DNA from: a virus
Length of the DNA stretch: 60,562 bases
Reading direction: 5' to 3' (one strand)
Virus record (IMG/VR): IMGVR_UViG_3300002052_000004
Coordinates: 1 to 60,562 of that record
The number at the start of each line of letters is the position of its first letter. The first letter of the stretch is position 1. Below the pieces are notes generated by a model that saw only the letters and a list, made by a program, of their open reading frames with translations, was not told the DNA's origin and did no database searches. The position numbers were made by a program, and so were the translations under genes. Positions 1,067-52,399 of the stretch are shown here, one piece after another.

Positions 1067-1252
1067 GTGAAATATATCGGTGCGTTTTCCCGTGGCCGCG
1101 ACCCCAGGATAGGCATAGTCGAGCACGGGAAAGTGTACGAAGTCAGTGAAGAGGTAGGGAAAGTTCTACTCTCTACCGGCCAGTATAAAGAAGTACGTGA
1201 AAAGATAGTAGAACCGAAAATAAAAACAAAGGAGGAAAAACCGATTGGCTAA
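1067..1252 (+). CDS. Small neck/tail-region protein, unknown
   Basis: This 61-residue protein starts at GTG 1067 behind an AGGAGGA ribosome site. It has a short beta-rich N-terminus (MKYIGAFSRGRDPRIG) and a Lys/Glu-rich tail. Small proteins of this kind are common just before the tail tube gene in siphophages. Its end overlaps the TTG start of the tail tube gene. Confidence 0.6.
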   Translation: MKYIGAFSRGRDPRIGIVEHGKVYEVSEEVGKVLLSTGQYKEVREKIVEPKIKTKEEKPIG

Positions 1253-2219
1253 ATGGTTAGGCATCGGCGAAGAGTCTGCATACATGACGAAAGGTACTGC
1301 AACTGTCTGGCTAGACTTCATTTCGGAGAGCGTCAGAGCAAGCAGAGAATTCATTGAGATACAGACGGTAAACGAACGGACACCGAGGTTTAGCATACCT
1401 GGACCGTTCAAAAGTGCTGGCGATATAGAGTGTCTAAGTAACACTGATGACCTTGGTTCGCTATTGGAGATGCTACTAGGTCCACCGGATACAGAAGGAA
1501 CTGCTCAGGGTACCACGGGTTATAAACACACGTGGAATACGATACCAAATGCTACATTGAAGTCGTATACCATGGAGATACAGAAAGAGATAACGACCTA
1601 TGAGAAGCTTCTATACGGAGCTGCGATAAAGTCATTGACTATCGATTGCCCCATTGCTGATAAAGTCGGTGTAACGGCATCGATATTAGCTGGTAAAGAT
1701 AAACTAGAAACCGCACAATCCCCAGGGACTGCAACTACACTTAAGCCACTAGTATACCATCAGAACGATGTGAGTCTCTTTGGTTCAGCTGCACCATGGG
1801 TTGAATCGATTAGCGTCACCATGGAGAATGGCTTCGACGAGGATGCATTCGTGCAAGGGGATTTGTTCCTACCGGAGCTGATACTCGGCCACTTCAAGGT
1901 AACTGGTACACTTGACCTAAGAGCTAAAGATTGGGATGCATATCAAAGATTCCTTGGAAGCGCATCTGCTGTGGAGCCATCTGCCGTAGTTGAAGAGTTT
2001 GAGATTCAGCTACAGATAGTTGGTGAAGAAGTCGACACAACGCCATACTATGCAACATTGGATATGAGAATGCCTAAGTGTCATTTCACAGAATTGGAGA
2101 TTCCAACAGAGCAGAGGAACAGACAGGTATACACTTTGCCGTTTGAGGCCTTATACGACGACAGTGAATCAACCGTACTGGATATAGAGCTGACGAATAA
2201 ACGGGCAACTACGATGTAG
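1245..2219 (+). CDS. Major tail tube protein
   Basis: This 324-residue, beta-rich, acidic protein polymerises into the tail tube. Features that fit tube proteins are the N-terminal GIGEESAYMTKGTATVWLDF segment, long stretches of alternating polar and hydrophobic residues, and its place directly before the chaperone pair and tape measure. Translation probably starts at TTG 1245, preceded by GGAGG. No sheath gene accompanies it, which points to a non-contractile tail. Confidence 0.8.
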   Translation: MAKWLGIGEESAYMTKGTATVWLDFISESVRASREFIEIQTVNERTPRFSIPGPFKSAGDIECLSNTDDLGSLLEMLLGPPDTEGTAQGTTGYKHTWNTIPNATLKSYTMEIQKEITTYEKLLYGAAIKSLTIDCPIADKVGVTASILAGKDKLETAQSPGTATTLKPLVYHQNDVSLFGSAAPWVESISVTMENGFDEDAFVQGDLFLPELILGHFKVTGTLDLRAKDWDAYQRFLGSASAVEPSAVVEEFEIQLQIVGEEVDTTPYYATLDMRMPKCHFTELEIPTEQRNRQVYTLPFEALYDDSESTVLDIELTNKRATTM

Positions 2220-2249
2220 TTGTGCTTGCAATATAAAGGAGGTGATATA

Positions 2250-2675
2250 TTGTCAGCAAAAGACTACAGGGCAAAGCGTCAATTGACTTTCAAAGTTCCG
2301 AGTGGTTTGGATTGGACGATACGAAAGATACCATTCCGAATCATGTGGAAGATGCTAGAGATACTGGGAATAGAAGTACCTGAAGGAATGACAGAAGAAG
2401 ACGCACGGGAGTATGTGAAAAAGGAACTGAAGGGTAAGAAAATTACACCGAAAGTTGTTGAAATCGTTAACTTAGTCGTTCCAGCGATATCATTGAAACC
2501 AAAAGTCGTAATAGGTGTGGCAACAGACGATGACGAACTTGGCATCGATGATATAGACATGGAAGACCTTATGGCGGTCTTTGGTAAAGGCATGGAGATT
2601 TCAGGTGCCACTGAGGATGCTGTAAAGGAACGTGAGTCCTTTCAGCCGGAGTCCCCTAGGAAAATTGGCGGGTAA
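2250..2675 (+). CDS. Tail assembly chaperone (gpG-like)
   Basis: This is a 141-residue protein starting at TTG 2250 behind a perfect GGAGGTGATATA site; an upstream TTG at 2220 has no such site. The acidic helical C-terminus and the position between tube and tape measure are those of gpG-type chaperones, which hold the tape measure soluble during tail assembly. The overlapping gene at 2632 in the +1 frame suggests a gpG/gpGT arrangement. Confidence 0.65.
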   Translation: MSAKDYRAKRQLTFKVPSGLDWTIRKIPFRIMWKMLEILGIEVPEGMTEEDAREYVKKELKGKKITPKVVEIVNLVVPAISLKPKVVIGVATDDDELGIDDIDMEDLMAVFGKGMEISGATEDAVKERESFQPESPRKIGG

Positions 2676-2871
2676 AGTTGCACAAGCGGTAAATAAAAGA
2701 CCTACTGATATGTTACCAGAAGACATAACAGGTACATCGGAATATGAGAAACTAATGCTTGATGCACGTATATTGCAAGAAGTGAGTGAAACGCCCCCTG
2801 ACTTTGGGCAGATGTCGACTCTCGATAAGATAAAGTGGAAGAGAAGAAATTGGCCTAAAAAGTATAGGTGA
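2632..2871 (+). CDS. Second tail chaperone segment (gpT-like)
   Basis: This 79-residue reading frame overlaps the end of the previous gene by 44 bases in the +1 frame. It could start on its own at GTG 2632 (AAAGGA four bases upstream) or be reached by frameshifting, as with the T extension of gpGT. Bulky basic residues near the C-terminus (KWKRRNWPKKYR) fit a tape-measure-binding role. The tape measure gene follows within five bases. Confidence 0.6.
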   Translation: MSPFSRSPLGKLAGKVAQAVNKRPTDMLPEDITGTSEYEKLMLDARILQEVSETPPDFGQMSTLDKIKWKRRNWPKKYR

Positions 2872-2875
2872 GAGT

Positions 2876-5077
2876 ATGTCAGTATCTGAGAAACGTATTA
2901 AGCTAGCTATCGCATGGATAGAGGAGCATCCAGAGACTCTTACGAGTGTTAAGGGAAAGATAGAGGAACTGGTTGTAGCCACTGACAAAGCGAAAGCTAT
3001 GATTCAGAAATACGTCCCCGAAGGAGCAAAACAGCAGAAGATACTAGCTGCTATAGACCAAGCAGCGATGAAACAAGGGGACAACATACTACGAAACGTA
3101 CTCGCCTATAAGTTGCTTACAAACGCACAGGAAGCTATGCGCCAAGCCTCAGAAAAGAACGCAAAGATGCTGGGAGAATGGGGGAGTAAGTTAGGACTTG
3201 CTGGGAGAAGAATAGGTTACTTCGGGAGAATGATGTTCTATAGCATTCGGAATATAATGCGACTTGGTACACAGTTCCTTCGAATGTTCATGGGATTGTT
3301 CAAGACAGCTGGAGATTTCGGTGCGGCGTTAGAGCAAGTGTCATTTGCAATGGCTCTTCTTGAAAGTCAAGGACTTGTAGCAGATGAAGCAATGACACTA
3401 TTCGGTGAAACTCAGGATATATTGATGGAAAAAGGACCGCAGATATGGGCGTTGTTTGAGGGATTTAAGGCTCTTTTCACATCACTCGCCGTCGTCATAG
3501 TGTCGGAACTTTTGCCTGAATTAACGGAACTTCTGAATACGTTAGCAGCACTTCTTAACAGAGAGGATGTAAGGCAATTAATACATGATATCATGGTAAC
3601 TGTGCTTGACCTAGCAGATGCATTTATAGAGGCAATACCTTCAATGTTACCGGTGATAAAAGGAATGCTTGACTTGGCTGTGGCAGCTAAGCCACTAATC
3701 GTTGCATTGTTGCCACTACTGCCTGTAATACTCGCTCTTTCGTTGGGTCTTTGGGCATTGGGTCCGATAATACAAGTGATTGGATTTATCATGCAAGTGG
3801 CAGGTTTCCTCACAGGTGGACTTGGAATAGCAATGACCACTTTATTACCAATAGTAGTAGCTCTTGCAGGTGCAGTCGCAGTCGGTGTAGGAGTCTTCTT
3901 ACTACTCAAAGATACACTTGGGACGACTAATGCTGCAATAGTTGCTATCGGAGCTGCAGTAGCCGCATTCATAACAATATTCTTCGGAGTGAAGGCACTG
4001 TTATTAAGTGTCGGAGCCGCTGGAGCAGCTGCTGCACCAGGAATTGTGGCCGCCGGAACAGCATTGGGTGCTGCAGGAGTTGCAGCAGCTCCAGCGATAC
4101 CGATTATACTTGCAATCGGAGCTGCTATAGCACTAGCTGGTGCAGGATTCCTTATGGCAGGAGCTGGGGTAATGCTTGCGGTTGACGCGGTGATTAGGTT
4201 GTTGGAAGCATTGCCTCAGCTTGTACCTATGGTACCTTACTTGTTTGCAATAGCTGCTGGATTGATGGCAATAGCTGTTGCAGGGATAGTATTGCTTCCC
4301 GCAGCACTTGGATTAGGAGCAGCTGCTGTTACACTTATGATATTCGCAGGTGCATTAGCAGTGGTTGCTGCACTTTCTGGGGCGATAGGAGTAGTAGCGA
4401 CCGGAATCTTACTCTTAGCTCAGAGCGTAGGCACACTCGTGAAGTCTATGGTAGGGATTATACCGCTAGTCGGACCGACACTTGCACTATCGACTGCGAT
4501 GTTTGCACTGGCAGCTGCCGGAGGAACTATGATGTTCGGAGCACTTGGAGTTACCGCAATGGCTGGTTCTCTCTTCGTACTTAGTGGAGGTATAGTTGCC
4601 CTAACCGGTGCAATCTGGGGATTGGTTGCAGCTGCGACAGCATTCGAAGCAGTTGGCGATACTGTAACAAGTATTGTCGGCGGAATTTCTGATGCAGTAG
4701 GTGGATTGGCTAATGCACTATTCGGACTCTGTTTCAGACATGCAACACCTATGGCAGAGAAGTTTGGGAAGAGTTTGGTAGCCGTACAGAGTGATATGAT
4801 AAATACAGAAAAAGGACTACGTGATATGAGAGACGAACTACTAGAACCATTCTCTTGGCAAGCGGTAGAAGTGGCAACTGGAGCGCCTGCGATAAGAGCG
4901 GCAGGTGAGAGAGTTGGAGAAGCTGAGCCGAAAGAGCAGCATATTACAATTGAGATGCCTGTCACTGTTGATTTGACTGGCGCTGTTATTTCGTCAGATA
5001 TGGATGTAGATGAAATAACAAATAAAGTAGGAGAGAAGTTAGGAGAAAAAGCAAGAGACTTGGTGACACTATTATGA
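2876..5077 (+). CDS. Tape measure protein
   Basis: This 733-residue protein has a charged helical N-terminus (residues 1-130), a very long Ala/Gly/Val/Leu-rich hydrophobic middle (about 240-610) with many transmembrane-like segments, and a polar C-terminus. This is the standard build of tail tape measure proteins, whose length sets tail length and which are ejected into the host envelope. At about 0.15 nm per residue the tail would be near 110 nm (inference). Chaperones lie directly upstream. Confidence 0.9.
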   Translation: MSVSEKRIKLAIAWIEEHPETLTSVKGKIEELVVATDKAKAMIQKYVPEGAKQQKILAAIDQAAMKQGDNILRNVLAYKLLTNAQEAMRQASEKNAKMLGEWGSKLGLAGRRIGYFGRMMFYSIRNIMRLGTQFLRMFMGLFKTAGDFGAALEQVSFAMALLESQGLVADEAMTLFGETQDILMEKGPQIWALFEGFKALFTSLAVVIVSELLPELTELLNTLAALLNREDVRQLIHDIMVTVLDLADAFIEAIPSMLPVIKGMLDLAVAAKPLIVALLPLLPVILALSLGLWALGPIIQVIGFIMQVAGFLTGGLGIAMTTLLPIVVALAGAVAVGVGVFLLLKDTLGTTNAAIVAIGAAVAAFITIFFGVKALLLSVGAAGAAAAPGIVAAGTALGAAGVAAAPAIPIILAIGAAIALAGAGFLMAGAGVMLAVDAVIRLLEALPQLVPMVPYLFAIAAGLMAIAVAGIVLLPAALGLGAAAVTLMIFAGALAVVAALSGAIGVVATGILLLAQSVGTLVKSMVGIIPLVGPTLALSTAMFALAAAGGTMMFGALGVTAMAGSLFVLSGGIVALTGAIWGLVAAATAFEAVGDTVTSIVGGISDAVGGLANALFGLCFRHATPMAEKFGKSLVAVQSDMINTEKGLRDMRDELLEPFSWQAVEVATGAPAIRAAGERVGEAEPKEQHITIEMPVTVDLTGAVISSDMDVDEITNKVGEKLGEKARDLVTLL

Positions 5078-5472
5078 CGTGGACAATTAAAAATATCGCA
5101 GAAACTGTGACGGTGGCGCTACCACAAGACCCCGAAGTGTATAAGGGGCAGTCTGCGAAGGTGTTGAAACAGCATCCAATGCAACAGCAGTATCCGTTTA
5201 TCTTTCCACATGGTGGAAAAGCTCGAATACTTAAATTGGAAGGTGCAGTACATGACAATACTAAGACTATTGCACAGATATATTCGGCATGGTTGAATCA
5301 GTTGGAGACATGGGCGGAGGATAAAGTGAGGATAAAGCTAACATGTGATAGCGGTAAAGGTCATACATCGGAAGAGATGTACTTGGCTAAATTTGACCAT
5401 GAGCCAAGGAAAGGATTCTTACATACTGTTTGGATAAAGATGGAACTTTGGAAGAAGGGGGCTGAGGATTGA
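5074..5472 (+). CDS. Distal tail protein-like
   Basis: This 132-residue beta-rich protein overlaps the tape measure stop by four bases and precedes the hub/fibre gene, the usual place of the distal tail (Dit) component. It contains repeated short strands and a KGHTSEEMYLAKFDHEPRKG segment. No decisive motif is seen; the call rests on order and size. Confidence 0.5.
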   Translation: MTWTIKNIAETVTVALPQDPEVYKGQSAKVLKQHPMQQQYPFIFPHGGKARILKLEGAVHDNTKTIAQIYSAWLNQLETWAEDKVRIKLTCDSGKGHTSEEMYLAKFDHEPRKGFLHTVWIKMELWKKGAED

Positions 5473-8400
5473 GCTACGAGTTACAATATGGTCCTTCATG
5501 GACTGCAGTTAAACCTGGCAGAGTTACGTATGGAGAGAGACAGAACAATCTACGTGCATGTGTTGCCACCGTGGCTAATACTTCTGCCAACAGGTCTGCT
5601 TTCACTCACAATACTGAGGTTAAAGTCTTTCTAAACGGTGACCAAATCTTATATGGACAAGTGAAGGCTCCGGTTGATGAGGGAGAGTTTCTTAAGGTAA
5701 AGATTGTTGATAGAGCAATTCAGCTTACAAGAGATGTATGGGAGAGGGACCAAGGACAGTCAGATAAGAAAGTAATTAAGTATACAACCTCTGCAGCAAG
5801 TACTATAGGTGGACATATACTATCAGGAACAGGATTCTCGCTTGGAGCTTGTCCAGGTACTACTGTGTCGATTAGATTTGAATATGTCACTAGGCTCCAA
5901 GCAATTGCTGCATTGGCAAAAGCACTTGGATTAGATTGGTGGGTCAATGACAATAAAATGGTATACATTGGAACTAACAATACAGCAAGAGGTACTATTG
6001 GAACATGTATGTGGGCAAAGAAGGAACCAGACGATGAGGCAAAGAGGGACCAGATATTTTTGAAGGGTGTAGATGACAATGGCACTGCCATTGAGGTGAC
6101 ATCTCCAGACCCGCCAACTGGTACTAATGCTGCTTACTTCACAGCTAGAAATCCTATGGATGCTACAACATTACAAATTGTAGCCGATGCTCTGTTAGCT
6201 GAGCTAAATCAGACTCAAAAGGTAGTAAAAGCGAATTATGCAGCTGCAGATGGTGTTGTTGGAACTAATGTTTTGCTGCGACCTGGTAACACCATGAATA
6301 TTAACTGGGGGACTGTTTCAGAGACTGCAATTGAAGTTATAGTAGTTGAGTTAAAGGATGAAAAGCTAACTGTTCATTGTGGAGTGTATAGGCCTGAAGT
6401 AGAAGAGTTGGAACGAGAACTTGGAGTTAAGATTGATATACAGGAAACAAGTTCTGTTGCTTGTTTTATGGATTGCCAGTTGCAGTGCCAGACATCTGAC
6501 CAAGTTTCTACACTAGCTGATGAGTTTGAAGGTACAGGAGTGTTATGGAACGAGATTAACGGTACCTGGGCTATAAGTGGTGGTTACTATAAACAAACGA
6601 ATACTGCATCTGCACACCATAAGAGTGTTTTGAAGTATTGTAAGTTTGCTGATGGTGAAGTGCAGGCAACATGTGTACCAAAGAATACATCAAAGGTATG
6701 TGGGGTGATAATGAGAAAGCAAGATGGTGCGGATACTTACTACTTTGCATGGCTAAACGTATCGACTGCTACAATAACACTATGGAAGATGATAGCTGGA
6801 ACACCTGCCATGATTACCAGTTATTCTGACGGGTCAATCTTATATGATACTGCTTATCGGGTAGCTATGCAGATACAAGGAGATGCTATTCGGGTATTTC
6901 TGAATGGGGAAAAGTTAATTGATACTACCGACGGTTCAATCACAGGAGCAGGGACTGCAGGATTAATCTCATATGCTGGGGAACACTGGTTTGAGAGATT
7001 CGCTTTCTATCCTGGTCAGTTTCCATCTGGTTGTACTGAGACTTGCCAAACGGAATGTCAATTGGGAGAACAGATATGTGCAAGTACTGGTAATTGCGAA
7101 TCTTCCTGTCAATCAACGCCATGTCAGTCACAAGATTGTGAAGCTGGTGGAATTTGTCAAAACGATTGTGAGGCCGGACATCGCTGCGAACTGACATGTG
7201 AATTTGCTTGCCAAGCAGGTTGTCAAATTTCAGAGGCATGTCAGTTAGCTTGTCAACCTGTGTGTCAGACAAGTTGCCAAGACTCTGGTACCTGCCAGGT
7301 GCAGTGTCAAGCAAGTGTACAGACTTGTGCACAGAGTGGACAATGTGAAAGTGCGTGTCAAGGTGCTTGTCAAGGTGTAGGTACATGTGAAGATGTATGT
7401 CAGACGGACAATCAAATGCATAGGATACTGACAGATTACAAAGCTGTATGGCATTGCAACGAAGAATCTGGTACTGATTTGTATGACTCTAGCAAGTATG
7501 GTAATCATGGCTCCGAGAATGGACCCACTACCATATATTCCGCTGGTAAGTTTGGTTACGGAAAGAAATACAATGGTTCGAGTAATTGGCACTCAATACC
7601 TCATTCTGCCAGCTTAAACATTACAGGCACAAAAATAACTATTATGGCATGGATAAAGACTGACGGTGGTGCTGGTAGCGGATACATAGTCTGCAAAAAC
7701 CTTGATGCTATCGGTAACATTCAGTATGCGTTGCTTTGGTACGCTACTGGTCCTGTGTTGAGGTTTTATGCCGATGGTGCACAACGCGGTAATGACTCTG
7801 GTACACTCTCAACAGGTATACTGTATCATGTTGCAGTAGTGTATAACGGTACTGATGTACGCTTTTATGTTAACGGTGAACTATCTGGTACACCTGGAGC
7901 GTGGACTTCTCCAATTACTAGTACAACTCATCCGTTGTGTATAGGTAGACGAAATGCAGGAACTTACTATGACGGAATGGTTGACGAAGTATGTATCCTA
8001 AAGGCAGCTTTGTCAGCAGCTGAGATAAAGGCTATATATAATGCTTCAGAACTACCTATCTTTGTTTGTGAGCAAGCTTGTGAAAGTACATGCCAAGGAA
8101 CAGAAGCCTGCGAAACAGGAGGCATTTGCCAAGATGCTTGTCAGCTTGGACACCGCTGTGAGTTGACTTGTGAAACAAATTGTCAAGTTGCGTGTCAAAT
8201 AGATTGTGAGACTACTTCTGCTTGTGAGACTAGTGGAGTTTGCCAAGGTATATGCGAGACTGGTCATCAGTGTGAGTTGACTTGTGAAACAGACTGTCAG
8301 GCAGGAACCCAAATTTGTGCAAGTTCAGGAGCTTGTGAAAGTTCATGCCAGAGTACACCTTGTCAAAGTCAAGATTGCGAAGCAGCTGGAGTATGCCAAG

Positions 8401-9098
8401 CAATATGTGAAGCAGGACATACCTGTGAAACAACTTGTCAAGATGAGTGTCAGGCATCATGTCAAAGTGCTTGTCAGGTATCGTGTCAAATTGCGTGCCA
8501 AGTATCGAACCAAATTTGTGCAAGTACTGGAAATTGTGAAAATGCGTGTCAGCAAACGTGCCAGCAAGCAAAGGCATGCGAGTCTGGTGGGGTATGCCAA
8601 GGCATCTGTGAAACTGGACATCTTTGTCAAGTTACTGCTCAGATATGTGATGGAACCCATTCCTGTCAAACCTCTGGACAAGTTGGTCACGAAGGTTACA
8701 CTGCAAAAAAGATTTCATGGACTAAAATACATGATACTGGAATGGGTTCAGAGCAGAAGGTTGAGGTTGGCTCATCATGGGACGTAATTCAGACTGCACT
8801 ATTTACTCCGGGTTCTGATGCACAAGCTTTAACTGGTGTTTTGGTAAGATGGGAAAGAGGTACAGTTGGTGGTGGATATGCAGAGGTTCAGTTTGCGTTA
8901 GTTGAAGGGGTGAATACTCGACATACTTGGTATGCGTATGTGAGTGGAGAACATCCAGATGGGCAGGTTTACATAATGTTACCCCTGCTATTCCCTGGTG
9001 GCACGTACCTTTATGTGAAAGGTCGAACAGCTTCAGGGTACGTGTATGTTAAGGCTGAAATAGAAGTATATCAGAGTCCTGAACATAAACATATTTAG
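5469..9098 (+). CDS. Tail hub/fibre with two cysteine-rich repeat blocks
   Basis: This is a 1209-residue protein starting at TTG 5469. Order: a beta-rich hub-like region (about 1-320), a short CFMDCQLQCQ link near 332, a LamG/ConA-like sandwich (about 340-515), Cys block A (about 521-647, 26 Cys), a second LamG-like domain (about 650-860, with a VDEVCILKAALSAAEI end typical of LamG modules), Cys block B (about 865-1070, 41 Cys), and a beta-rich C-terminal domain (about 1080-1209). In the Cys blocks almost every Cys is followed by Gln or Glu and spaced 4 or 6 residues from the next, with a recurring C-E-x-G-H-x-C-E-L-T-C unit. The protein probably forms the tail tip and receptor-binding fibre. 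A radical SAM enzyme is encoded two genes downstream and could modify it. Disulfide or metal binding are alternatives. Confidence 0.85.
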   Translation: MSYELQYGPSWTAVKPGRVTYGERQNNLRACVATVANTSANRSAFTHNTEVKVFLNGDQILYGQVKAPVDEGEFLKVKIVDRAIQLTRDVWERDQGQSDKKVIKYTTSAASTIGGHILSGTGFSLGACPGTTVSIRFEYVTRLQAIAALAKALGLDWWVNDNKMVYIGTNNTARGTIGTCMWAKKEPDDEAKRDQIFLKGVDDNGTAIEVTSPDPPTGTNAAYFTARNPMDATTLQIVADALLAELNQTQKVVKANYAAADGVVGTNVLLRPGNTMNINWGTVSETAIEVIVVELKDEKLTVHCGVYRPEVEELERELGVKIDIQETSSVACFMDCQLQCQTSDQVSTLADEFEGTGVLWNEINGTWAISGGYYKQTNTASAHHKSVLKYCKFADGEVQATCVPKNTSKVCGVIMRKQDGADTYYFAWLNVSTATITLWKMIAGTPAMITSYSDGSILYDTAYRVAMQIQGDAIRVFLNGEKLIDTTDGSITGAGTAGLISYAGEHWFERFAFYPGQFPSGCTETCQTECQLGEQICASTGNCESSCQSTPCQSQDCEAGGICQNDCEAGHRCELTCEFACQAGCQISEACQLACQPVCQTSCQDSGTCQVQCQASVQTCAQSGQCESACQGACQGVGTCEDVCQTDNQMHRILTDYKAVWHCNEESGTDLYDSSKYGNHGSENGPTTIYSAGKFGYGKKYNGSSNWHSIPHSASLNITGTKITIMAWIKTDGGAGSGYIVCKNLDAIGNIQYALLWYATGPVLRFYADGAQRGNDSGTLSTGILYHVAVVYNGTDVRFYVNGELSGTPGAWTSPITSTTHPLCIGRRNAGTYYDGMVDEVCILKAALSAAEIKAIYNASELPIFVCEQACESTCQGTEACETGGICQDACQLGHRCELTCETNCQVACQIDCETTSACETSGVCQGICETGHQCELTCETDCQAGTQICASSGACESSCQSTPCQSQDCEAAGVCQAICEAGHTCETTCQDECQASCQSACQVSCQIACQVSNQICASTGNCENACQQTCQQAKACESGGVCQGICETGHLCQVTAQICDGTHSCQTSGQVGHEGYTAKKISWTKIHDTGMGSEQKVEVGSSWDVIQTALFTPGSDAQALTGVLVRWERGTVGGGYAEVQFALVEGVNTRHTWYAYVSGEHPDGQVYIMLPLLFPGGTYLYVKGRTASGYVYVKAEIEVYQSPEHKHI

Positions 9099-9122
9099 GA
9101 TGAACAATAAGGAGGTAGAAAA

Positions 9123-9419
9123 ATGGAATTGTTGAACGAAACATTTGAAGTAGAGACAAAGAAAAGCAAAGAATACACATTTGTTGCACAGAAAGGTCTT
9201 TCGGGAATGGATGTGTACGCCAAAGTTAACCCAACAGAGACCCAACTTTCACCAAGTGGAGTATCCATTGAAGTGACAAAGAAAGGAAAGATAGTTCGCG
9301 AGATACAACTGAAAAATGTAGCATTTGCCATTGGCAATGCTGAAGGTACCTACAAAGTAATAATTAAGAACAAGAATCCACTGACGGTGACAGGAACTGT
9401 AAGAGTAGTGACTGTATAA
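9123..9419 (+). CDS. Small beta-sandwich tail-tip protein
   Basis: This 98-residue, Lys-rich, all-beta protein has no cysteine. It follows the hub/fibre gene with a GGAGG site and overlaps the radical SAM gene by one base (TAATG). Its predicted fold resembles a single Ig-like module. It may be a fibre accessory or a partner of the radical SAM enzyme; neither is shown by the sequence. Confidence 0.6.
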   Translation: MELLNETFEVETKKSKEYTFVAQKGLSGMDVYAKVNPTETQLSPSGVSIEVTKKGKIVREIQLKNVAFAIGNAEGTYKVIIKNKNPLTVTGTVRVVTV

Positions 9420-10543
9420 TGGTCTGGCAAAGTCTCTCGTTGCACACGTCAAAGCGGTGCAGCCTGAGATGCAAATACTGTTTTCTAGATAAGAACCCTG
9501 AGGATGCTGACTGGAGTACACTAAAGGCAACCCTCGATTGGTGGTTCAAAGTTACCGGACAGAAGACTCATGTACACATCTTTGGGACAGAACCATTGAT
9601 TCGGTATGACCTGCTTCAGAATGTGTTTGAGTATGCAGACTTGTTAGCAAAGAGAACTAAGAAAACATTGACTAAGGGTATTACTACGAATGGAGTAGGG
9701 ATGACTAGAAGTGTAGCTAATTGGTTGACTAAGAATAAGGTGTCTTGCTTGTGTAGTATTGATGGCATGAGAGAGCAGCACGACAAATACAGAGTGTTTC
9801 CAAGCGGGAAGGGTAGTTGGGGTATTGTAAGTTCAAACTTTCGACGCTGGGTAAGTATGAACCCAAATGCTGAAGCGGCCATGACTGTAACACCAGATAG
9901 CATCCCGAAGCTTGCAGAGAATGTTGATGCTATCTACAAGTTGGGATTCTGGGCAGTTGCACTAAATAAATGTGTTGATTCGGGACCAACGTACACCAGT
10001 GAGGATTTTAAGGCTTTATCTCTTGCTTTCCGAAGGGTTAATGACTTGATTATCAAGTATGCTAAGAAGAAGGTGAAGAAACACATTATGTTCATCTCTA
10101 ACATGACAATTAAAAGAGCTCAAGGACGAGCAGTGAAGAATATAATGACATCCTGTGGTGCGGCAAAAGGTTCACTTGCTGCAGACATTTATGGAAAGAT
10201 ATACATTTGCCATAGGGGAGTGTTCGATTACGGAACATTCGGGGTGGGCAATGTTTGGGATGGGTTGGATATGCAGAAGATTCAGGAGTGGCGAGCCAGA
10301 AGAAATAGTCATTGTCTGCACTGTAGAATGGTGGAATGTTCTCCATGCTATGTTATCAATTTTATTCGCAACGGAGATGTGATGAAGACTCCATGGGAAT
10401 CATGTGTTTATAACGAGCTAGTACATGAGGCAAGTTATGACTTAGACAGACAGCTTAAGAGAGAGGGTTTGTATAAATGGTATTGTGGTACTCCTCTGAA
10501 ACCTCATCCTGTAATTCAGGTGAGGCAGAGAAATAAACTATAA
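9419..10543 (+). CDS. Radical SAM/SPASM enzyme, putative peptide-modifying
   Basis: This 374-residue protein has CxxxCxxC at residues 14/18/21 (CSLRCKYC), the [4Fe-4S] site that cleaves S-adenosylmethionine. The C-terminal third has a SPASM-like set of cysteines: one near residue 245, one in KIYICHR, then C-x2-C-x4-C-x2-C near 299-310 (CLHCRMVECSPC). SPASM radical SAM enzymes oxidise or crosslink peptides, for example anaerobic sulfatase maturases and thioether-forming RiPP and QhpD enzymes. No formylglycine CxPxR target is evident. Its overlap with the tail-tip gene and closeness to the Cys-rich fibre suggest the fibre is its substrate (inference). Confidence 0.85.
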   Translation: MVWQSLSLHTSKRCSLRCKYCFLDKNPEDADWSTLKATLDWWFKVTGQKTHVHIFGTEPLIRYDLLQNVFEYADLLAKRTKKTLTKGITTNGVGMTRSVANWLTKNKVSCLCSIDGMREQHDKYRVFPSGKGSWGIVSSNFRRWVSMNPNAEAAMTVTPDSIPKLAENVDAIYKLGFWAVALNKCVDSGPTYTSEDFKALSLAFRRVNDLIIKYAKKKVKKHIMFISNMTIKRAQGRAVKNIMTSCGAAKGSLAADIYGKIYICHRGVFDYGTFGVGNVWDGLDMQKIQEWRARRNSHCLHCRMVECSPCYVINFIRNGDVMKTPWESCVYNELVHEASYDLDRQLKREGLYKWYCGTPLKPHPVIQVRQRNKL

Positions 10544-12704: not shown

Positions 12705-13253
12705 TCACACCTCCAATCCTTCCACAAATATCATTTCCTCGGGTAGCTGGTCGATTGAAAAAACTGACGTTTCTACCACTCTGAATTCGACCGGCTCAGA
12801 CCAAAGGAATTTTGGACTTCTGCGTAGTCGCTTATGAATTCGCTGGTACTTATCGTAACCAAAGCATTCACCCAGCAGAGGTCTAAAGTCTGTTAAGATG
12901 GGAAACATCTTACATCCATACGGGCGAGCGCCGTATATAGTGCAATGGTTCTTCCATTTCTCCGTGTTTAAGAGAAACGGACACTTATCACCTTTGTACA
13001 ACTTGTAAGTCTTCTCGCCAGCGTCCCCTAAGTACTTATTGATAAAAGAGGCCAAACCTTCGACGGAATCACTATAACCGAGATATTTGCTGACTCTCTT
13101 CAGGTCAAACGGACCCCATTGTGCACCAATCTTACAACACTTTCCACAACGTTGACACTCGAATGGTATGAATATATCTCCGTCGGTGAAATGCATTATA
13201 CATCCTAGGATTAAGCCTTTTTTCCTATAGTCCTTAGACGTCTGAAGTTCCAT
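12705..13253 (-). CDS. YkgJ-like CxxCxxCC cluster protein
   Basis: This 182-residue protein carries CQRCGKCC (about residues 35-42) and later single cysteines, including CPFL, CTIYGARPYGC and ECFGY. This is the pattern of the YkgJ/UPF0153 family of zinc- or iron-chelating proteins, whose function is unknown. A shorter relative is encoded at 50897-51214 in the late operon. Confidence 0.75.
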   Translation of the reverse strand: MELQTSKDYRKKGLILGCIMHFTDGDIFIPFECQRCGKCCKIGAQWGPFDLKRVSKYLGYSDSVEGLASFINKYLGDAGEKTYKLYKGDKCPFLLNTEKWKNHCTIYGARPYGCKMFPILTDFRPLLGECFGYDKYQRIHKRLRRSPKFLWSEPVEFRVVETSVFSIDQLPEEMIFVEGLEV

Positions 13254-15924: not shown

Positions 15925-16078
15925 GGTTTAATGGCTTCCCACAGAACGGACAGATTGTAACACCACCGGCTGTTGCTGGTGATTTCACTAACCACGGTGG
16001 AACCGGTGAGTAACAATGTGGACATCTCACGTACTTCTTCGGAGCTTCACTTGACAGGGTCAACAACTCCTGCGGCAT
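15887..16078 (-). CDS. Zinc-ribbon protein
   Basis: This 63-residue protein has CPHC and CPFCGKPL knuckles about 24 residues apart. The start at ATG 16078 is inferred; an upstream in-frame ATG at 16141 would lengthen the overlap with queC. Function unknown. Confidence 0.6.
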   Translation of the reverse strand: MPQELLTLSSEAPKKYVRCPHCYSPVPPWLVKSPATAGGVTICPFCGKPLNHAVQGQAEKTGV

Positions 16079-16709
16079 CGAACCCTTTCTTTCTCTGTAC
16101 ACAGGCATTACACTTCCCACAGGGATGTTCTTTGCCTTCATAGCACGACCAAGTCTTCTCCCATGGAGTTCCCAGAGCTTCTCCTCGCAGGACTATCTCA
16201 CACTTCGTATCATCTATCAGTGGTACAACAACATGTGGTTTATCTCTTGAGCCGTATCGTAACATTACATTAATTGCATTAACATACGTAGGTCTTGTAT
16301 CTGGGTATCCTCCACTGTCAATCCAATTGAAGCCTGTGTAGATTTCCTTTGCTCCAACGACTTCCGCTACTGCCGCGCATAGTGCGAGGAAGATTGTATT
16401 CCTCATCGGTACGTATGTAAGTGCGCTGCCAGTCTTCTCCCAGACATCTTCATCCTCCTCATGTTCAGGCACATCAATGGTCTCGTTCGTTAACGCGGAA
16501 CCACCAATTTGTCTAAGGTCAATCTTTATCACCTTATACAGTACATTATAGTGCTTTGCGAGTTTCGCTGCCGCATTCATCTCTTTCTCGTGTCTCTGTC
16601 CGTAGTCAAAGGTTACTGCGAGAACATTCACTGCGTCGTGATGTCTCACTGCTAATCCAAGTGCGACTGCACTGTCCATTCCACCACTAAGCATTACTAT
16701 TGCTTTCAA
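16047..16709 (-). CDS. queC: 7-cyano-7-deazaguanine (preQ0) synthase
   Basis: This 220-residue enzyme converts 7-carboxy-7-deazaguanine to preQ0 with ATP and ammonia. It has the PP-loop SGGMDS at residues 8-13, a TYVPMRN segment, and the C-terminal zinc site SCYEGKEHPCGKCNAC (about 187-203). Length is normal for QueC. The TTG start at 16709 follows an AGGTG site and overlaps the previous gene by four bases. With folE, queE and queD nearby the virus has the whole GTP-to-preQ0 route. Confidence 0.95.
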   Translation of the reverse strand: MKAIVMLSGGMDSAVALGLAVRHHDAVNVLAVTFDYGQRHEKEMNAAAKLAKHYNVLYKVIKIDLRQIGGSALTNETIDVPEHEEDEDVWEKTGSALTYVPMRNTIFLALCAAVAEVVGAKEIYTGFNWIDSGGYPDTRPTYVNAINVMLRYGSRDKPHVVVPLIDDTKCEIVLRGEALGTPWEKTWSCYEGKEHPCGKCNACVQRKKGFDAAGVVDPVK

Positions 16710-16987
16710 GACTTTTCACCTCCCTTTACGCTTTTCTTTTCTGTTTCCTTCGTTTCCTCGGTTTTCGGAGGCTCTACAACTTTAGGTACCGGTGTAGGTT
16801 TAAGGAATGCTAGTAGCTCCTCCGAAAGTTCCTTCTCCAGTTTCTTCACTGTCGCAGTTATCTTCCTTTCCTTTGCTTTCCCGTCAAGTCCAGTCGTGTT
16901 TACGGATTCGAACTTCTCTGCTGGAAGACTAACTGTCACTCGTGTTGTATTTGCCGCCGTAATTACTTTCTTTACTTCATATTGCAT
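16706..16987 (-). CDS. Unknown protein between folE and queC
   Basis: This 93-residue protein starts at ATG 16987 with an AAGGAGGTGAGAAT site. The N-terminal half is beta-rich (YEVKKVITAANTTRVTVSLP) and the C-terminus is Pro/Glu/Lys-rich and likely disordered. It lies inside the preQ0 cassette, but no role can be read from the sequence. Confidence 0.65.
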   Translation of the reverse strand: MQYEVKKVITAANTTRVTVSLPAEKFESVNTTGLDGKAKERKITATVKKLEKELSEELLAFLKPTPVPKVVEPPKTEETKETEKKSVKGGEKS

Positions 16988-16991
16988 ATTC

Positions 16992-17576
16992 TCACCTCCT
17001 TGTTCCATATATCAACTTTAGTGCCTCGTTTCTCGGTGGTTCAAAGTTGAGAAAGACCCCCCGTACTGCGTTTGTCACGGTGTACGCATTCGTATGTGCT
17101 GGCATACCGTAATCAAACTTTCCTCCGACTAACATGCAGGTATGCGTCCCTTCGATAACTACCATGCATCCAAGTGGTTCGAGACATTCATCGATTACAT
17201 CTGCCAACTCCGTATTCATTCCCTCCTGTATCTGTGGTCGCTTAGATATCGCTCGAACAGCACTAACGAACTTTGAAAGTCCGACAATCTTCTTGTGCGG
17301 AATGTACGCGATGTGTACTTTACCAAAGAACGGCCAGAGATGATGACAACACATAGAGACGAACTCTATATCCTTCACGATTACCATCTCACCGTGTTCG
17401 ACAGACAATGGTCGCTCAAAGAACTTCCTAATATCGATGCCAACTCCTGCTGTCATGTCCTTATACAGGTCAACAATCCTCCTCGGTGTCTCCTCCAACT
17501 CGTCAGTGAGCTCTATGCCACAACATAGCAGTAGGTCTCTCGCTTTACGTTCCTTTTCTTTCTGTGTATGCTCCAA
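16992..17576 (-). CDS. folE: GTP cyclohydrolase I
   Basis: This 194-residue enzyme makes dihydroneopterin triphosphate from GTP, the first step to preQ0. The CCHHLWPFFGKVHIAYIP motif (Cys76/77, His78/79) and a later Cys147 in THTCM supply the zinc ligands. PLGCMVVIEGTH matches the family core. TTG start with a TTGGAGGTGAAATAG site. Most archaea use an unrelated type IB enzyme for this step, so a type IA FolE in an archaeal virus suggests transfer from bacteria or phages. Confidence 0.93.
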   Translation of the reverse strand: MEHTQKEKERKARDLLLCCGIELTDELEETPRRIVDLYKDMTAGVGIDIRKFFERPLSVEHGEMVIVKDIEFVSMCCHHLWPFFGKVHIAYIPHKKIVGLSKFVSAVRAISKRPQIQEGMNTELADVIDECLEPLGCMVVIEGTHTCMLVGGKFDYGMPAHTNAYTVTNAVRGVFLNFEPPRNEALKLIYGTRR

Positions 17577-17594
17577 CTATTTCACCTCCAATAA

Positions 17595-17765
17595 CTACCC
17601 TCGTAATGGTATTTGTGTACGGTTGCAAGACCATACAGAATCGAACTCCACTTTGCAATCGTTACATTTAGCCTCGACAACTAGTTCACCCATCTCTATG
17701 TCAAATCTCACTTCATGCAAATGCAGTTCAACATCTTCGGACCTGCATCTGGGACAAATAACCAT
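17595..17765 (-). CDS. Zinc-ribbon mini-protein
   Basis: This 56-residue protein has CPRC (Cys4/Cys7) and CNDC about 27 residues later. It begins directly after queE and lies just before folE in the same transcript. Confidence 0.65.
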   Translation of the reverse strand: MVICPRCRSEDVELHLHEVRFDIEMGELVVEAKCNDCKVEFDSVWSCNRTQIPLRG

Positions 17766-17769
17766 TTAA

Positions 17770-18399
17770 TCACCTCCCTCTCGCTCCGTGCCATAATAGC
17801 TTGTGTAACTGAGGAAGTATGCGAATATTCCGTCCGTTCTCCTGCACCCAGCTGATAATCTTCTTCATCAGTTCGAGGTCATTATCGACAGGCTGAATAC
17901 ATACCTGTTCGAAGTTATACTTATAATCAAGTCGTTTCACTACTGTAAAGTCTGTTTCGTTAGCTACGACGAACTTAAACTCTGCGATACCTGTAGCTCT
18001 GAATTCCTTTATTATAGCAGTGCTGAACGTTTCGCCGGATGAGGGTAACTTCGGGGAAACTACCCAGTGAGTCGGCGACCATTCCTTCGATGGACTCTTC
18101 GTACAGTTCGTCTCAATATGTACTTTCATGTAGAAGAGCCGCTCCATTAATTCAGTTAAATTTTGAACAAGTGGCTCTCCGCCTGTAATGACCACCATCG
18201 GTTGCTCTAGTCTCAACACCTCTCTCGCGATGAACTCCTCAGATAGTTCTAAATGGTCACCTCTATATGCATACTTCGTGTCACACCATTTGCAACGCAA
18301 ATTACATCCATAGAGTCTTATAAACGTACACGGTGTACCTATGTAGAACCCTTCACCCTGTATAGACTTGAATATCCCACCTCTCACGATTTTAAGCAA
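17770..18399 (-). CDS. queE: 7-carboxy-7-deazaguanine synthase, radical SAM
   Basis: This 209-residue enzyme converts 6-carboxytetrahydropterin to 7-carboxy-7-deazaguanine. It has QGEG (14-17), CNLRCKWC (32/36/39) for the [4Fe-4S] cluster, and the TGGEPL motif. The TTG at 18399 is preferred because it lies six bases after AGGAGGT; an ATG at 18405 touches the ribosome site directly. It overlaps a 70-residue gene upstream. It is the second enzyme class of the preQ0 cassette and the second radical SAM enzyme in this genome. Confidence 0.93.
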   Translation of the reverse strand: MLKIVRGGIFKSIQGEGFYIGTPCTFIRLYGCNLRCKWCDTKYAYRGDHLELSEEFIAREVLRLEQPMVVITGGEPLVQNLTELMERLFYMKVHIETNCTKSPSKEWSPTHWVVSPKLPSSGETFSTAIIKEFRATGIAEFKFVVANETDFTVVKRLDYKYNFEQVCIQPVDNDLELMKKIISWVQENGRNIRILPQLHKLLWHGARGR

Positions 18400-18596
18400 T
18401 CCCATACCTCCTCGAATAATAACCTGAGTACCTTCCACCAAGACGGCGTACGAAATGTCCAAGAAAGTGTCACAGGCTTGTCAACGAAGTCCAACTTAAT
18501 TCGAACATTCTCTGGGGTTAACACTATATGGTCAGGTAATGGCATTCTACTTAGCTGTCGCTTTAACGCCCAATAGAACACCCTATCCTTTATCAT
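18384..18596 (-). CDS. Unknown basic protein upstream of queE
   Basis: This 70-residue protein is rich in Arg, Trp and Leu and has a GGAGAGAAAGAAG ribosome site. It overlaps the queE start. No recognised motif. Confidence 0.6.
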   Translation of the reverse strand: MIKDRVFYWALKRQLSRMPLPDHIVLTPENVRIKLDFVDKPVTLSWTFRTPSWWKVLRLLFEEVWDCLKS

Positions 18597-18611
18597 CTTC
18601 TTTCTCTCCTG

Positions 18612-18761
18612 TTAACCTGCCTTAATCAAGAATAGCAACACGCATATCGTTGCAATAACAGTACACAAGATATAAAGAACCCCATAATCTCCACAGTCGG
18701 ATATCTCTATAAGAGCGTCTAAATCAGGTTTGTGTTTGTCGTTTTCTTTTTGTTTCTTCAT
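18612..18761 (-). CDS. Single-pass membrane mini-protein
   Basis: This 49-residue protein has a charged N-terminus (KKQKENDKHK) and one transmembrane helix at about residues 28-47. It overlaps the previous small gene in another frame. Function unknown. Confidence 0.5.
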   Translation of the reverse strand: MKKQKENDKHKPDLDALIEISDCGDYGVLYILCTVIATICVLLFLIKAG

Positions 18762-18882
18762 CTTTATTTCGTCCTTCCGTATTTCGCTCTAACTTTTCAA
18801 TCACCCAGTCGGTACTATCCACGATGAACTTCACGAATCTCCGTACGGCCCATTTGAGCACCTTCCGGATGAGTTTCCACAT
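18724..18882 (-). CDS. Small basic helical protein
   Basis: This 52-residue protein starts at ATG 18882 within the queD stop (TGATG). It is an amphipathic basic helix with a Lys/Arg-rich tail. Function unknown. Confidence 0.5.
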   Translation of the reverse strand: MWKLIRKVLKWAVRRFVKFIVDSTDWVIEKLERNTEGRNKDEETKRKRQTQT

Positions 18883-19286
18883 CAGACCACTGCTCCTTGA
18901 TTCGGTCCCTCACAAAGCATGAAGCCCACATTTTTAATTCCATGAACCATCAACAGTCTTTTCTGAATCTCTTTCGAAATGTCTTCTACTGTTGGAATGC
19001 CGTCAACTGTAACGATGTTTAAATGTACACCGAGCCCTTTGTCTACAATTACTGTGTTTACCTCCTGCCAATATAATTCATCTCTCTTCGATATAATCAA
19101 CGCATGGTCGAATTCTTTAATTATTGTCTTAATAATTCCGAAGTCAACGAACTCTCCTTCTTCACATTCTATAACCATATCTCTCACGAAATACGTGTGA
19201 CCATGTAATGCTCCACACTTCGGGTGCTCCGGTATATAATGTGCGGAGTTAAACGTCAACTCTTTTATATACAATGTATTGAGCAA
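18882..19286 (-). CDS. queD: 6-carboxy-5,6,7,8-tetrahydropterin synthase
   Basis: This 134-residue enzyme converts dihydroneopterin triphosphate to 6-carboxytetrahydropterin. His16, His28 and His30 bind zinc (NSAHYIPEHPKCGALHGHTY), Cys24 is the catalytic cysteine, and CEGPNQG is the conserved C-terminal loop. TTG start behind GGAGGTGAGAGA. Confidence 0.93.
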   Translation of the reverse strand: MLNTLYIKELTFNSAHYIPEHPKCGALHGHTYFVRDMVIECEEGEFVDFGIIKTIIKEFDHALIISKRDELYWQEVNTVIVDKGLGVHLNIVTVDGIPTVEDISKEIQKRLLMVHGIKNVGFMLCEGPNQGAVV

Positions 19287-50451: not shown

Positions 50452-50904
50452 ATGGTGCAAAATGTAGAACACTTCGTAGAAGTTACGCCTCCTCTCACCT
50501 GGAGAGCGACCTATAATGATGGCACGGTACTGAGCCAATACAACCCTGATGGGTCGAAGAACAGTTACAACAATCTCGATAGGGAGGGTCTTACAGCATT
50601 TGAATTGCTGAACAAAGCAACAGGGCAGACCATCATTGTTATTCATCTTGACAAAGGTAAGAAACTCATCTGGAGAATGCGTGTTGCTCTTAGACTGGGA
50701 TATATGACAAAGCAACGCGTGCATCTTATTGGTTGGCAGGAGAACAAAATTCTCTTCCGTATTCGAAATTTCGCGATATGCCGAAAGGTTGAAACTATCT
50801 GTGCGATATTCGGTGATGGGCATATTGAGGTCACGGGTGGTTTCAAGAAAAAACATCCGTGGCTCTATCCAGTAATCTTGAGAGAGGCTGAGAAGCTTGA
50901 GTAA
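50452..50904 (+). CDS. Phage-type protein of unknown role
   Basis: In this 150-residue protein, ATG 50452 follows AGGAGGTGTAAT. The WRATYNDGTVLSQYNPDGS stretch followed by LDREGLTAFELLN is a pattern seen in many phage proteins of unknown function that sit near structural genes. Confidence 0.65.
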   Translation: MVQNVEHFVEVTPPLTWRATYNDGTVLSQYNPDGSKNSYNNLDREGLTAFELLNKATGQTIIVIHLDKGKKLIWRMRVALRLGYMTKQRVHLIGWQENKILFRIRNFAICRKVETICAIFGDGHIEVTGGFKKKHPWLYPVILREAEKLE

Positions 50905-51214
50905 GTACATCCGTCACGGGCAATGTAATCGTTGCGGTGAATGCTGTAAACAAGTAGGTGCCCGTATTATGGTTTCGAAAGACACAGGACTCTGTAGATT
51001 TCTCATTGAGAAACCTAAGGGAGTCTTCTCTTGTCGGATTACGATGGATATCTTCCGTAAAAGAGTGAAAAAACCAGGGAGCGTAACGGAGAAGCAATAT
51101 CAATACTGGCTGAATGAGTGTCAACCGTTTCCTAATCCAGATGACCCAGCACATTGTCCGCCAAGGTATGTACTTCCCAAGAAGTGTGGGTATCAGATGA
51201 TTGAGGTGAAATAG
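50897..51214 (+). CDS. YkgJ-like CxxCxxCC cluster protein
   Basis: This 105-residue protein starts at TTG 50897. CNRCGECC at residues 10-17, then CRFL, SCRITMD, ECQPFPNPDDPAHCPP and KKCGYQ give the YkgJ pattern. It is the second such protein in this genome but lies in the late operon, so a virion or maturation role is possible. Confidence 0.75.
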   Translation: MSKYIRHGQCNRCGECCKQVGARIMVSKDTGLCRFLIEKPKGVFSCRITMDIFRKRVKKPGSVTEKQYQYWLNECQPFPNPDDPAHCPPRYVLPKKCGYQMIEVK

Positions 51215-52399
51215 TTGGTTACAGAGGAAAGAAATGCAACGACTTTACAAGCTGCCGGACAGTGGGCGAATGAATCCAACTTTACTGGAGCACATAGTGG
51301 CAGCTGTATGAATGAAGATACTGATGGTCACGTTTCTGGAGAGTTCAGTTTCAACTTCTCAGTCATTCCAGATGGCGCGACAATTGATGGTATCGAAGTT
51401 TTACTGCACTGTATTGCAGGGGACGGAGATGATGATTTAACAGTTGAGCTCTACGATTCAGTAAGCACATGGAGATTGAAAGACGTAGTTGACCCCGGTA
51501 GTGGTGCAGCATGTGGTGATTGTGTCGATAAGACAGTAGGGGGCGCAACTGACACCTGGGGAGGTACATGGACAGGTGCACATATCAAATCTTCAAGCTT
51601 CCGAATCCGAGTCACAGCAGTAAAAGCGGCTAAGGCAGGTGGATACTGGGCGTGTGATTACTGTCTCGTCACGGTTCATTATACTGCAGTAACATCAAAT
51701 ACGAAGGACTTTACAGCTGACGCGATTTTAAAAGCAATTGGAACGAAAAACTTCTCGATGGATGCGATGTTAAAGTTCGTTCAAACAAAGGTTTTCAACA
51801 CTGACGCATTGTTAAAACACGTACAGACGAAAGCATTTGATGTTGACGCATTGCTAAAAGCTGTGCCTACAAAGACTTTTGATGTAGATGCGATACTTCT
51901 AAAGGCACAGACAATAGATTTTACCGTTGATGCGCTTTTAACTGTACCGCAAACGATAGATTTCACAACGGACGCAGTACTTAAGCTTTCACCGAAGAAA
52001 ACCTTCGATGTAGACGCGATTTTGACGCAAGCTCTGACGAAAACCTTCACGGTAGACGCGATTTTAGCATTTGTACAGACGAAAACATTTACGGCAGATG
52101 CAATATTGTTCTTGAAACCAACGAAAAGTTTCACTGTGGACGCACTATTAAAGGCAATTCAAGCAAAAACCTTCACGGTGGATGCATTACTCCTGCAATC
52201 TGTGGAGAAAACATTCGTTGTGGACGCAATTCTTACGAAGTCTTTCACAAAGACGTTTGAAGTTGATGCACTTCTTACGAAAACTCTAACGAAAAGTTTC
52301 ACATGTGACGCAATTCTCGAAGGTGGAGTACCGCCAGAACCTGTAGTTGACCGTGTACCTTCACCCAGTCCGTCAGTATCTGTGAGCGTGAGTATATGA
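51215..52399 (+). CDS. Fibre-like protein with 15 tandem 14-residue repeats
   Basis: This 394-residue protein starts at TTG 51215. Residues 1-160 form a beta-sandwich lectin-like domain. Residues 163-372 are 15 copies of a 14-residue unit with consensus T-K-[TS]-F-[TD]-V-D-A-[IL]-L-x4. The C-terminus is Pro/Ser/Val-rich. The repeats probably build a stalk or beta-solenoid on the capsid. Overlaps the next gene by four bases. Confidence 0.75.
   Translation: MVTEERNATTLQAAGQWANESNFTGAHSGSCMNEDTDGHVSGEFSFNFSVIPDGATIDGIEVLLHCIAGDGDDDLTVELYDSVSTWRLKDVVDPGSGAACGDCVDKTVGGATDTWGGTWTGAHIKSSSFRIRVTAVKAAKAGGYWACDYCLVTVHYTAVTSNTKDFTADAILKAIGTKNFSMDAMLKFVQTKVFNTDALLKHVQTKAFDVDALLKAVPTKTFDVDAILLKAQTIDFTVDALLTVPQTIDFTTDAVLKLSPKKTFDVDAILTQALTKTFTVDAILAFVQTKTFTADAILFLKPTKSFTVDALLKAIQAKTFTVDALLLQSVEKTFVVDAILTKSFTKTFEVDALLTKTLTKSFTCDAILEGGVPPEPVVDRVPSPSPSVSVSVSI
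51701..52330 (+). repeat. 42-bp coding tandem repeat, 15 copies
   Basis: This DNA encodes the 14-residue units of the fibre-like protein. Nucleotide sequence differs between copies more than the protein does, so the repeat has been kept by selection on the protein. Confidence 0.85.

Follow-up and report, generated by a model that had tools for sequence, protein, structure and literature searches.

Why does a tailed virus carry a gene for a radical S-adenosylmethionine (SAM) enzyme two genes behind that for a tail protein with long blocks of regularly spaced cysteines? We addressed this question in the virus record IMGVR_UViG_3300002052_000004, positions 1–60,562 (hereafter referred to as the window, the whole 60.6-kb stretch of DNA analysed). 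The window encodes a terminase, a major head protein, a tail tube protein and a tail assembly chaperone, and therefore belongs to a tailed virus. An earlier reading of the same DNA, made from its letters without database searches (hereafter the sequence-only reading), had proposed that the enzyme, of the SPASM type, matures the tail fibre by thioether cross-links. Our results point in the same direction. We consider it probable that the SPASM enzyme of the window uses the cysteine blocks of the fibre as its substrate, makes non-alpha cysteine thioethers and rigidifies a part of the tail. The elements of this proposal differ in strength: the pairing of enzyme and cysteine repeat is in itself close to shown; the tail protein is, as judged from sequence, very likely the substrate of the enzyme; the product is, by analogy, likely to be a non-alpha thioether; and stiffening and stability without disulfides are a plausible purpose. 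The features concerned are the following.

5469–9098, plus strand: tail hub/fibre protein with cysteine blocks, 1209 residues, the presumed substrate; its hub part matches the hubs of the related viruses G066 (2e-13) and G070 (4e-10)
5535–6305, plus strand: hub region (residues 23–279), common to viruses without cysteine blocks (blastp)
6462–6491, plus strand: cysteine mini-block, C332, C336 and C340 (CFMDCQLQCQ)
7032–7403, plus strand: cysteine block 1 (residues 522–645), 26 cysteines
7575–8030, plus strand: concanavalin-like lectin domain (Laminin_G_3, PF13385, 8.1e-27), flanked by blocks 1 and 2
8067–8669, plus strand: cysteine block 2 (residues 867–1067), 41 cysteines
9123–9419, plus strand: 98-residue protein, function unassigned, with the fibre upstream and the enzyme downstream
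9419–10543, plus strand: radical SAM/SPASM enzyme, 374 residues, the presumed fibre-modifying cross-linker (PF04055, 33.8 bits; cut-off 29.5)
9458–9481, plus strand: CxxxCxxC motif (C14/C18/C21) for the [4Fe-4S] cluster that cleaves SAM; no variation among 46 phage enzymes
10154–10405, plus strand: SPASM cysteines C246–C329 for auxiliary clusters, invariant or nearly so in the 46 enzymes

Cysteine blocks of the tail protein

The open reading frame (ORF) at 5469–9098 encodes 81 cysteines in 1209 residues, 70 of which lie in the blocks (26 + 41 + 3). The sequence-only reading had counted the two large blocks exactly and had overlooked the three-cysteine mini-block. Its statement that nearly all of these cysteines are written C-Q or C-E agrees with our count, since glutamate or glutamine directly follows the cysteine at 63 of the 70 block positions. 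In the two main blocks C[EQ] was observed 61 times, as compared with a mean of 20.6 and a maximum of 32 in 2000 shuffles. The cysteine-to-cysteine spacings within the blocks were 4 (n = 37), 6 (n = 21), 7 (n = 5) and 5 (n = 4). A recurring C-E-x-G-H-x-C-E-L-T-C unit had also been claimed; we counted the unit CExxGxCQxxCExGHxCExT five times, at residues 557, 881, 919, 970 and 1037. Furthermore, a 52-residue super-repeat with copies at residues 535 and 948 conserves 11 of 11 cysteines and 10 of 11 post-cysteine residues. Between the copies, synonymous changes affect 22 codons and non-synonymous changes 12. The cysteine pattern is conserved despite many synonymous changes and has therefore been selected at the protein level. 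Family searches gave the hub no name, tblastn with the fibre matched only the lectin domain, and a single-sequence AlphaFold prediction of the hub (predicted local distance difference test score, pLDDT, 35) yielded no usable model.

Another metagenome contig (L003; IMGVR 3300001752_000064) has the fibre, the 98-residue gene and the enzyme gene, all 100% identical to those of the window, and the arrangement is therefore no assembly accident. Family searches with the 98-residue protein returned no match, and its homologues in the fetched loci were limited to the same virus, in this second contig. Likewise, a direct sequence search of IMG/VR with the window enzyme returned matches limited to the same virus.

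Pairing of enzyme and cysteine repeat in other viruses

As a forward survey, from repeat to enzyme, we scanned IMG/VR for a DNA pattern of five successive C[EQ]xx units; all counts in this section are among the matches listed. Sorting the matches by eye, ORF by ORF, gave 23 virus records with genuine repeats (G012 and G018 being near-copies within this set) and 41 records whose pattern arises as a shadow frame of a different repeat and which served as controls. Radical SAM genes (PF04055) were found in 18 of the 23 genuine records and in 3 of the 41 controls (Fisher's test, 9e-9). When a profile of phage SPASM enzymes was added, the enzyme was present in 20 of the 23; the profile alone detected one in the 41 controls, and 20/23 against the larger control count of 3/41 gave 1.3e-10. 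The three genuine records without the enzyme are fragments of 7.9–17 kb whose contig ends inside the repeat gene. In most genuine records the enzyme gene adjoins the repeat gene or sits within about 3 kb of it.

The reverse survey searched IMG/VR with an alignment of six enzymes (A3), with no cysteine criterion, and gave 68 non-redundant loci; another alignment (A2) offered no stretch conserved enough to serve as a query. A CxxxC-repeat ORF was present within 7 kb on the same strand at 40 of the 68 loci and on the opposite strand at 5, and a looser rule that accepted any dense-cysteine ORF raised the positives to 53. As a control, we used QueE, another phage radical SAM enzyme: none of its 44 loci had a CxxxC-repeat ORF (40/68 against 0/44, Fisher's test, 4.5e-12), and two had a same-strand ORF under the looser rule. 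These results, taken together, show the pairing to recur in unrelated tailed phages, in both directions and against two control sets. That such genes never co-occur with cysteine-repeat fibres had been named beforehand as a possible refutation of the proposal, and this refutation failed because the pairing is strong from both sides.

The QueE loci also bear on another explanation, in which the radical SAM gene serves the host as an auxiliary metabolic gene and lies beside the fibre by chance. Radical SAM genes with metabolic roles do occur in phages, the QueE gene of the window among them, and those of Campylobacter phages CP220/CPt10 have been interpreted as metabolic (PMC2853527). However, the QueE loci are devoid of CxxxC-repeat neighbours, and the enzyme gene of the window overlaps the fibre-adjacent gene inside a tail module. 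We find a chance neighbourhood of this kind scarcely credible.

The repeats are not confined to one type of protein. A single enzyme family (36–50% identity to its first member) accompanies repeats on differently built tail proteins, which we judged by eye to be hub-like (about 1000 residues; L098 and L285) or gpI-like (300–500 residues; L057, L127 and L083). Cysteine-rich stretches also occur on a J/Phage-tail_3 protein (L293) and a YqbQ-like protein (L070). The phenomenon therefore extends beyond the single 'tail fibre' of the sequence-only reading, to tail proteins of hub-like, gpI-like and J-like build. Where a locus does not satisfy the CxxxC rule, it often adjoins cysteine repeats of another grammar, such as the CxxC arrays at L305 and L344. 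In a group of large phages (L335, L342, L345 and L349–L353), CTCNCNY-repeat proteins, in some cases several in tandem, lie 0.7–2 kb from a SPASM radical SAM gene, and other phage enzymes adjoin repeats with N, T, D or Y after the cysteine. When the post-cysteine residue (Glx or other) was mapped onto the enzyme tree, it changed 4 times, as against 8.3 times in shuffles, none of 500 shuffles being as low. The residue after the cysteine follows the enzyme tree, as expected if it matters to the enzyme.

These distributions help to judge a further possibility, in which the cysteine blocks form rods that bind metals or Fe-S clusters or are held by disulfides. The enzyme would then act on a different target or in a different role and would be their neighbour for another reason. 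Dense cysteine repeats are capable of binding metals or forming disulfides, and the activity of the enzyme is itself a prediction. Against this, the pairing spans unrelated tail proteins in both survey directions with near-zero controls, the post-cysteine residue tracks the enzyme, and the reducing cytoplasm would prevent disulfides during assembly. We therefore hold this possibility to be very unlikely and retain the blocks as the probable substrate.

We also compared the window with three relatives, G011, G066 and G070, chosen by kinship in terminase, portal, capsid and tube. G011 has both cysteine repeats and the enzyme. G070, related in capsid, portal and terminase, has a homologous hub without cysteine repeats, and its match to the enzyme profile is weak and QueE-like only. 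The homologous hub of G066 is also without cysteine repeats.

Some individual loci deserve mention. In G001 (L253, L269, L273 and L275), four different radical SAM genes stand in series around a C-Q repeat protein (L012:10054-10680). The cultured Erwinia phage Asesino (L011:3097-3896) has two CxxxC-repeat proteins (gp184 and gp185) with about 20 cysteines each, 1–3 kb upstream of a radical SAM pair (gp180 and gp181), and offers a practical model. A scan of genome contigs for the C[EQ]xx pattern returned mostly shadow frames, together with the prophage-like tail proteins L159, L168 and L186.

The SPASM enzyme and its likely chemistry

The sequence-only reading had placed a SPASM radical SAM enzyme, with CxxxCxxC at residues 14, 18 and 21 and with C-terminal clusters, two genes past the fibre and had described it as coupled to the intervening gene by an overlap. 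Both observations hold: the enzyme gene occupies 9419–10543 and shares 1 nucleotide with the 98-residue gene, in the sequence TAATG. We took as the SPASM signature CX9-15GX4C ... CX2CX5CX3C ... C, which corresponds to two auxiliary clusters. The window enzyme has this signature in C246, G259, C264, C299, C302, C307, C310 and C329, which are invariant in a seven-sequence alignment; its third group, CX2CX4CX2C, is slightly shorter than the canonical CX2CX5CX3C.

Among curated families, PapB (NF047865) gave the highest score, 183.6 bits against a cut-off of 340. The models for SCIFF (TIGR03974; 131.1 bits, cut-off 425), nif11-like peptide maturases (125 bits), QhpD (TIGR03906; 121.6 bits, cut-off 453) and CXXX-repeat maturases (TIGR04115; 110.8 bits, cut-off 350) also matched, each under its cut-off. 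All 22 phage enzymes scanned match the PapB, SCIFF, QhpD and CXXX-repeat maturase models. An AlphaFold2 model of the window enzyme, made with 46 phage homologues, had a pLDDT of 90.3. Its best fold match was the SCIFF maturase CteB (template modelling, TM, score 0.81/0.72; E 2.6e-24), with anSME structures second, and CteB was also the best solved homologue in the profile comparison (E 1.5e-91). The claimed kinship to ranthipeptide-forming SPASM enzymes is thus supported both by the closest models (PapB, SCIFF and QhpD) and by the closest fold.

The enzyme might nevertheless act on the cysteine blocks by other radical SAM chemistry: thioether formation at the alpha-carbon (sactionine), cysteine oxidation of the anaerobic sulfatase-maturating (anSME) kind, epimerisation or formation of C-C bonds. 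All of these are known among SPASM enzymes, and the second rank of the anSME structures, the shortfall from every family cut-off and the enzymes beside repeats with other post-cysteine residues, or with hardly any cysteine (G066), leave room for them. However, the top models are those of enzymes that form non-alpha thioethers, the anSME model scores 58.7 bits as against 183.6 for PapB, and the regular carboxylate or amide side chain after the cysteine fits well with Asp, Glu, Asn and Thr being the non-alpha acceptors known so far. We regard such other chemistry as unlikely and favour the non-alpha thioether.

Two related enzymes have unusual architectures. The SPASM radical SAM gene of the 172-kb phage G006 (L258/L299) appears to contain two intein-like insertions, each starting at a SPASM cysteine. 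In G085 (L440:8317-10959), a SPASM enzyme carries a fused C-terminal glycosyltransferase-like domain, with no cysteine-repeat neighbour in the 20 kb read. Matches of the window enzyme to 'phage' sequences from human faeces (MT83xxxx) were left out of the counts, since most look like bacterial contigs with ordinary SCIFF peptides.

Proposed cross-linking of the tail

We propose that, inside the reducing host cytoplasm, the enzyme would bind the tail protein when it has just been made or is being assembled. Working cluster by cluster, it would attach the sulfur of a cysteine to a side chain close by, at a carbon other than the alpha-carbon. The most likely acceptor would be the glutamate or glutamine after each cysteine, which may belong to the cysteine's own unit (i+1), the next one (i+5) or the preceding one (i−3). 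Position +1 carries Glx throughout; positions +5 and −3 do so only in stretches with a cysteine spacing of 4, and the sequence does not single out one acceptor. Chains of small rings would form on both sides of the lectin domain and would convert the flexible linkers around it into rigid rods proof against proteases and reductants. Disulfides do not form during assembly in a reducing cytoplasm, and the likely benefit would be a rigid, protease-resistant spacer that can be made there. Each link would cost 2.016 Da, and the thioether reading predicts an effect visible by intact-mass and peptide mass spectrometry.

Several observations weigh against this proposal. No named family's curated cut-off is reached by the window enzyme. 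It has no N-terminal RiPP recognition element (RRE; RiPP, ribosomally synthesized and post-translationally modified peptide), with only 13 residues ahead of the first cluster cysteine, and in this it is unlike CteB; it would have to recognise the fibre without one. The related A3 enzymes do have about 80 extra N-terminal residues. Glutamine makes up about half of the candidate acceptors, and we found no precedent for a glutamine acceptor in the open-access literature; the sequence-only reading had cited Asp/Glu acceptors. In the reverse survey, 28 of the 68 enzyme loci were without a CxxxC-repeat gene, or 15 under the looser rule. Moreover, two SPASM-like enzymes of G066 (L434:9191-12909) lie beside two small short-repeat proteins rich in Asp, Tyr, His and Ser and poor in cysteine, so that the enzyme class is not tied to cysteine alone; this locus is perhaps a nearly cysteine-free version of the same idea. 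Finally, the virion role of the repeat proteins is based on domain matches and gene order.

With these points considered, viruses that have the pairing probably weld parts of their tails together. On balance, we are inclined to see a general strategy of virion maturation, in which many lineages of tailed viruses would equip hubs, fibres and further tail proteins with weldable cysteine repeats, which a dedicated SPASM enzyme, encoded by the virus, would knit into rigid thioether rods. Clades of the enzyme would be matched to repeat grammars (C[EQ]xx, C[ST]xx, CTCNCNY, CxxC and perhaps the nearly cysteine-free Asp/Tyr/His repeats).

Comparison with known systems

PapB, of the top-scoring family, is likewise a radical SAM enzyme with a SPASM domain. 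It links cysteine to Asp or Glu with 0–6 residues in between (PMC9413430). It differs in having an RRE and a small CX3D peptide as its substrate (PapA/freyrasin), whereas the window enzyme has no RRE and is paired with a 1209-residue tail protein with C[QE] units. The SCIFF maturases CteB and Tte1186 are the closest solved relatives in both profile and fold, and SCIFF enzymes join Cys32 to Thr37 or Thr34 (PMC8172795, PMC8326336). The SCIFF core CQTSCQSACKTSC...NQxC resembles ECQASCQSACQVSC...NQIC in block 2 of the fibre. This likeness was reached in 5 of 300 cysteine-preserving shuffles, and in 15 of 300 when the post-cysteine residue was kept too; the notion that the blocks are polymerised SCIFF cores is only suggestive. 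SCIFF systems differ from the window in genome context, and the score of the window enzyme (131 bits) is far from their cut-off. A structural protein chain is cross-linked by QhpD, which makes Cys-to-Asp/Glu links in a protein subunit rather than in a small peptide and stabilises it (PMC8172795). Its substrate QhpC, the gamma subunit of quinohemoprotein amine dehydrogenase, receives three thioethers of this type, whereas the fibre could hold as many as about 60, and is an enzyme subunit, not a part of a virion. RiPPs are defined by a small precursor with a core cut from its leader; the fibre blocks are internal to a large tail protein, on either side of its lectin domain.

The CXXX-repeat maturases of NCBIfam (TIGR04115/TIGR04119) share with our system a cysteine at every fourth residue. 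The window enzyme is no member of these families, whereas the phage enzyme L261, with 484 bits against a cut-off of 350, does belong to them and lies beside a CxxxC-repeat protein. We found no paper in the open-access literature that uses the phrase 'CXXX-repeat'. Covalent strengthening of virus particles is familiar from HK97-type capsids, in which isopeptide bonds cross-link the head; in the window, by contrast, a separate radical enzyme would act, and on the tail instead of the head.

Ranthipeptide-type SPASM maturation is known, and its use for tail maturation looks new. Full-text searches of open-access papers turned up no description of virions matured by a radical SAM enzyme. The combination of enzyme and cysteine repeat is known in silico, from the NCBI CXXX-repeat models and their member L261, and, as far as can be told, not as a virion system. 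If the proposal is true, virus particles are cross-linked by a radical enzyme, apparently commonly in tailed phages. This would explain the SPASM enzymes of many phages, so far annotated as hypothetical or as host metabolism, and would place the NCBI CXXX-repeat families in a phage context. It would also make available a large natural collection of enzymes able to weld long repeat proteins, of use for making stiff polypeptides free of disulfides.

The tail module and other features of the window

The genes upstream of the fibre are as follows.

1245–2219, plus strand: tail tube/minor tail protein (phrog_290, tail, 2.4e-28)
2220–2675: tail assembly chaperone (phrog_4336, 7.6e-5)
2876–5077, plus strand: probable tape measure protein, 733 residues, hydrophobic (position and composition; weak match to the G011 homologue, 1.3e-5)
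5074–5472, plus strand: 132-residue tail protein between the tape measure and the hub (homologue at the equivalent position in G070, 2.7e-8)

The tail tube and chaperone genes fix the locus as a tail module, and the gene order from 1245 to 9098 puts the 1209-residue protein in the position of a tail hub.

Elsewhere in the window, QueC-, FolE-, QueE- and QueD-like genes (16047–19286, minus strand) form a preQ0/7-deazaguanine set, which probably serves the modification of the viral DNA. Two small YkgJ-like proteins, each with a CxxCxxCC cysteine cluster, are encoded at 12705–13253 (minus strand) and 50897–51214 (plus strand), and a 394-residue protein at 51215–52399 contains about a dozen tandem units of the type KTFTVDALLK.

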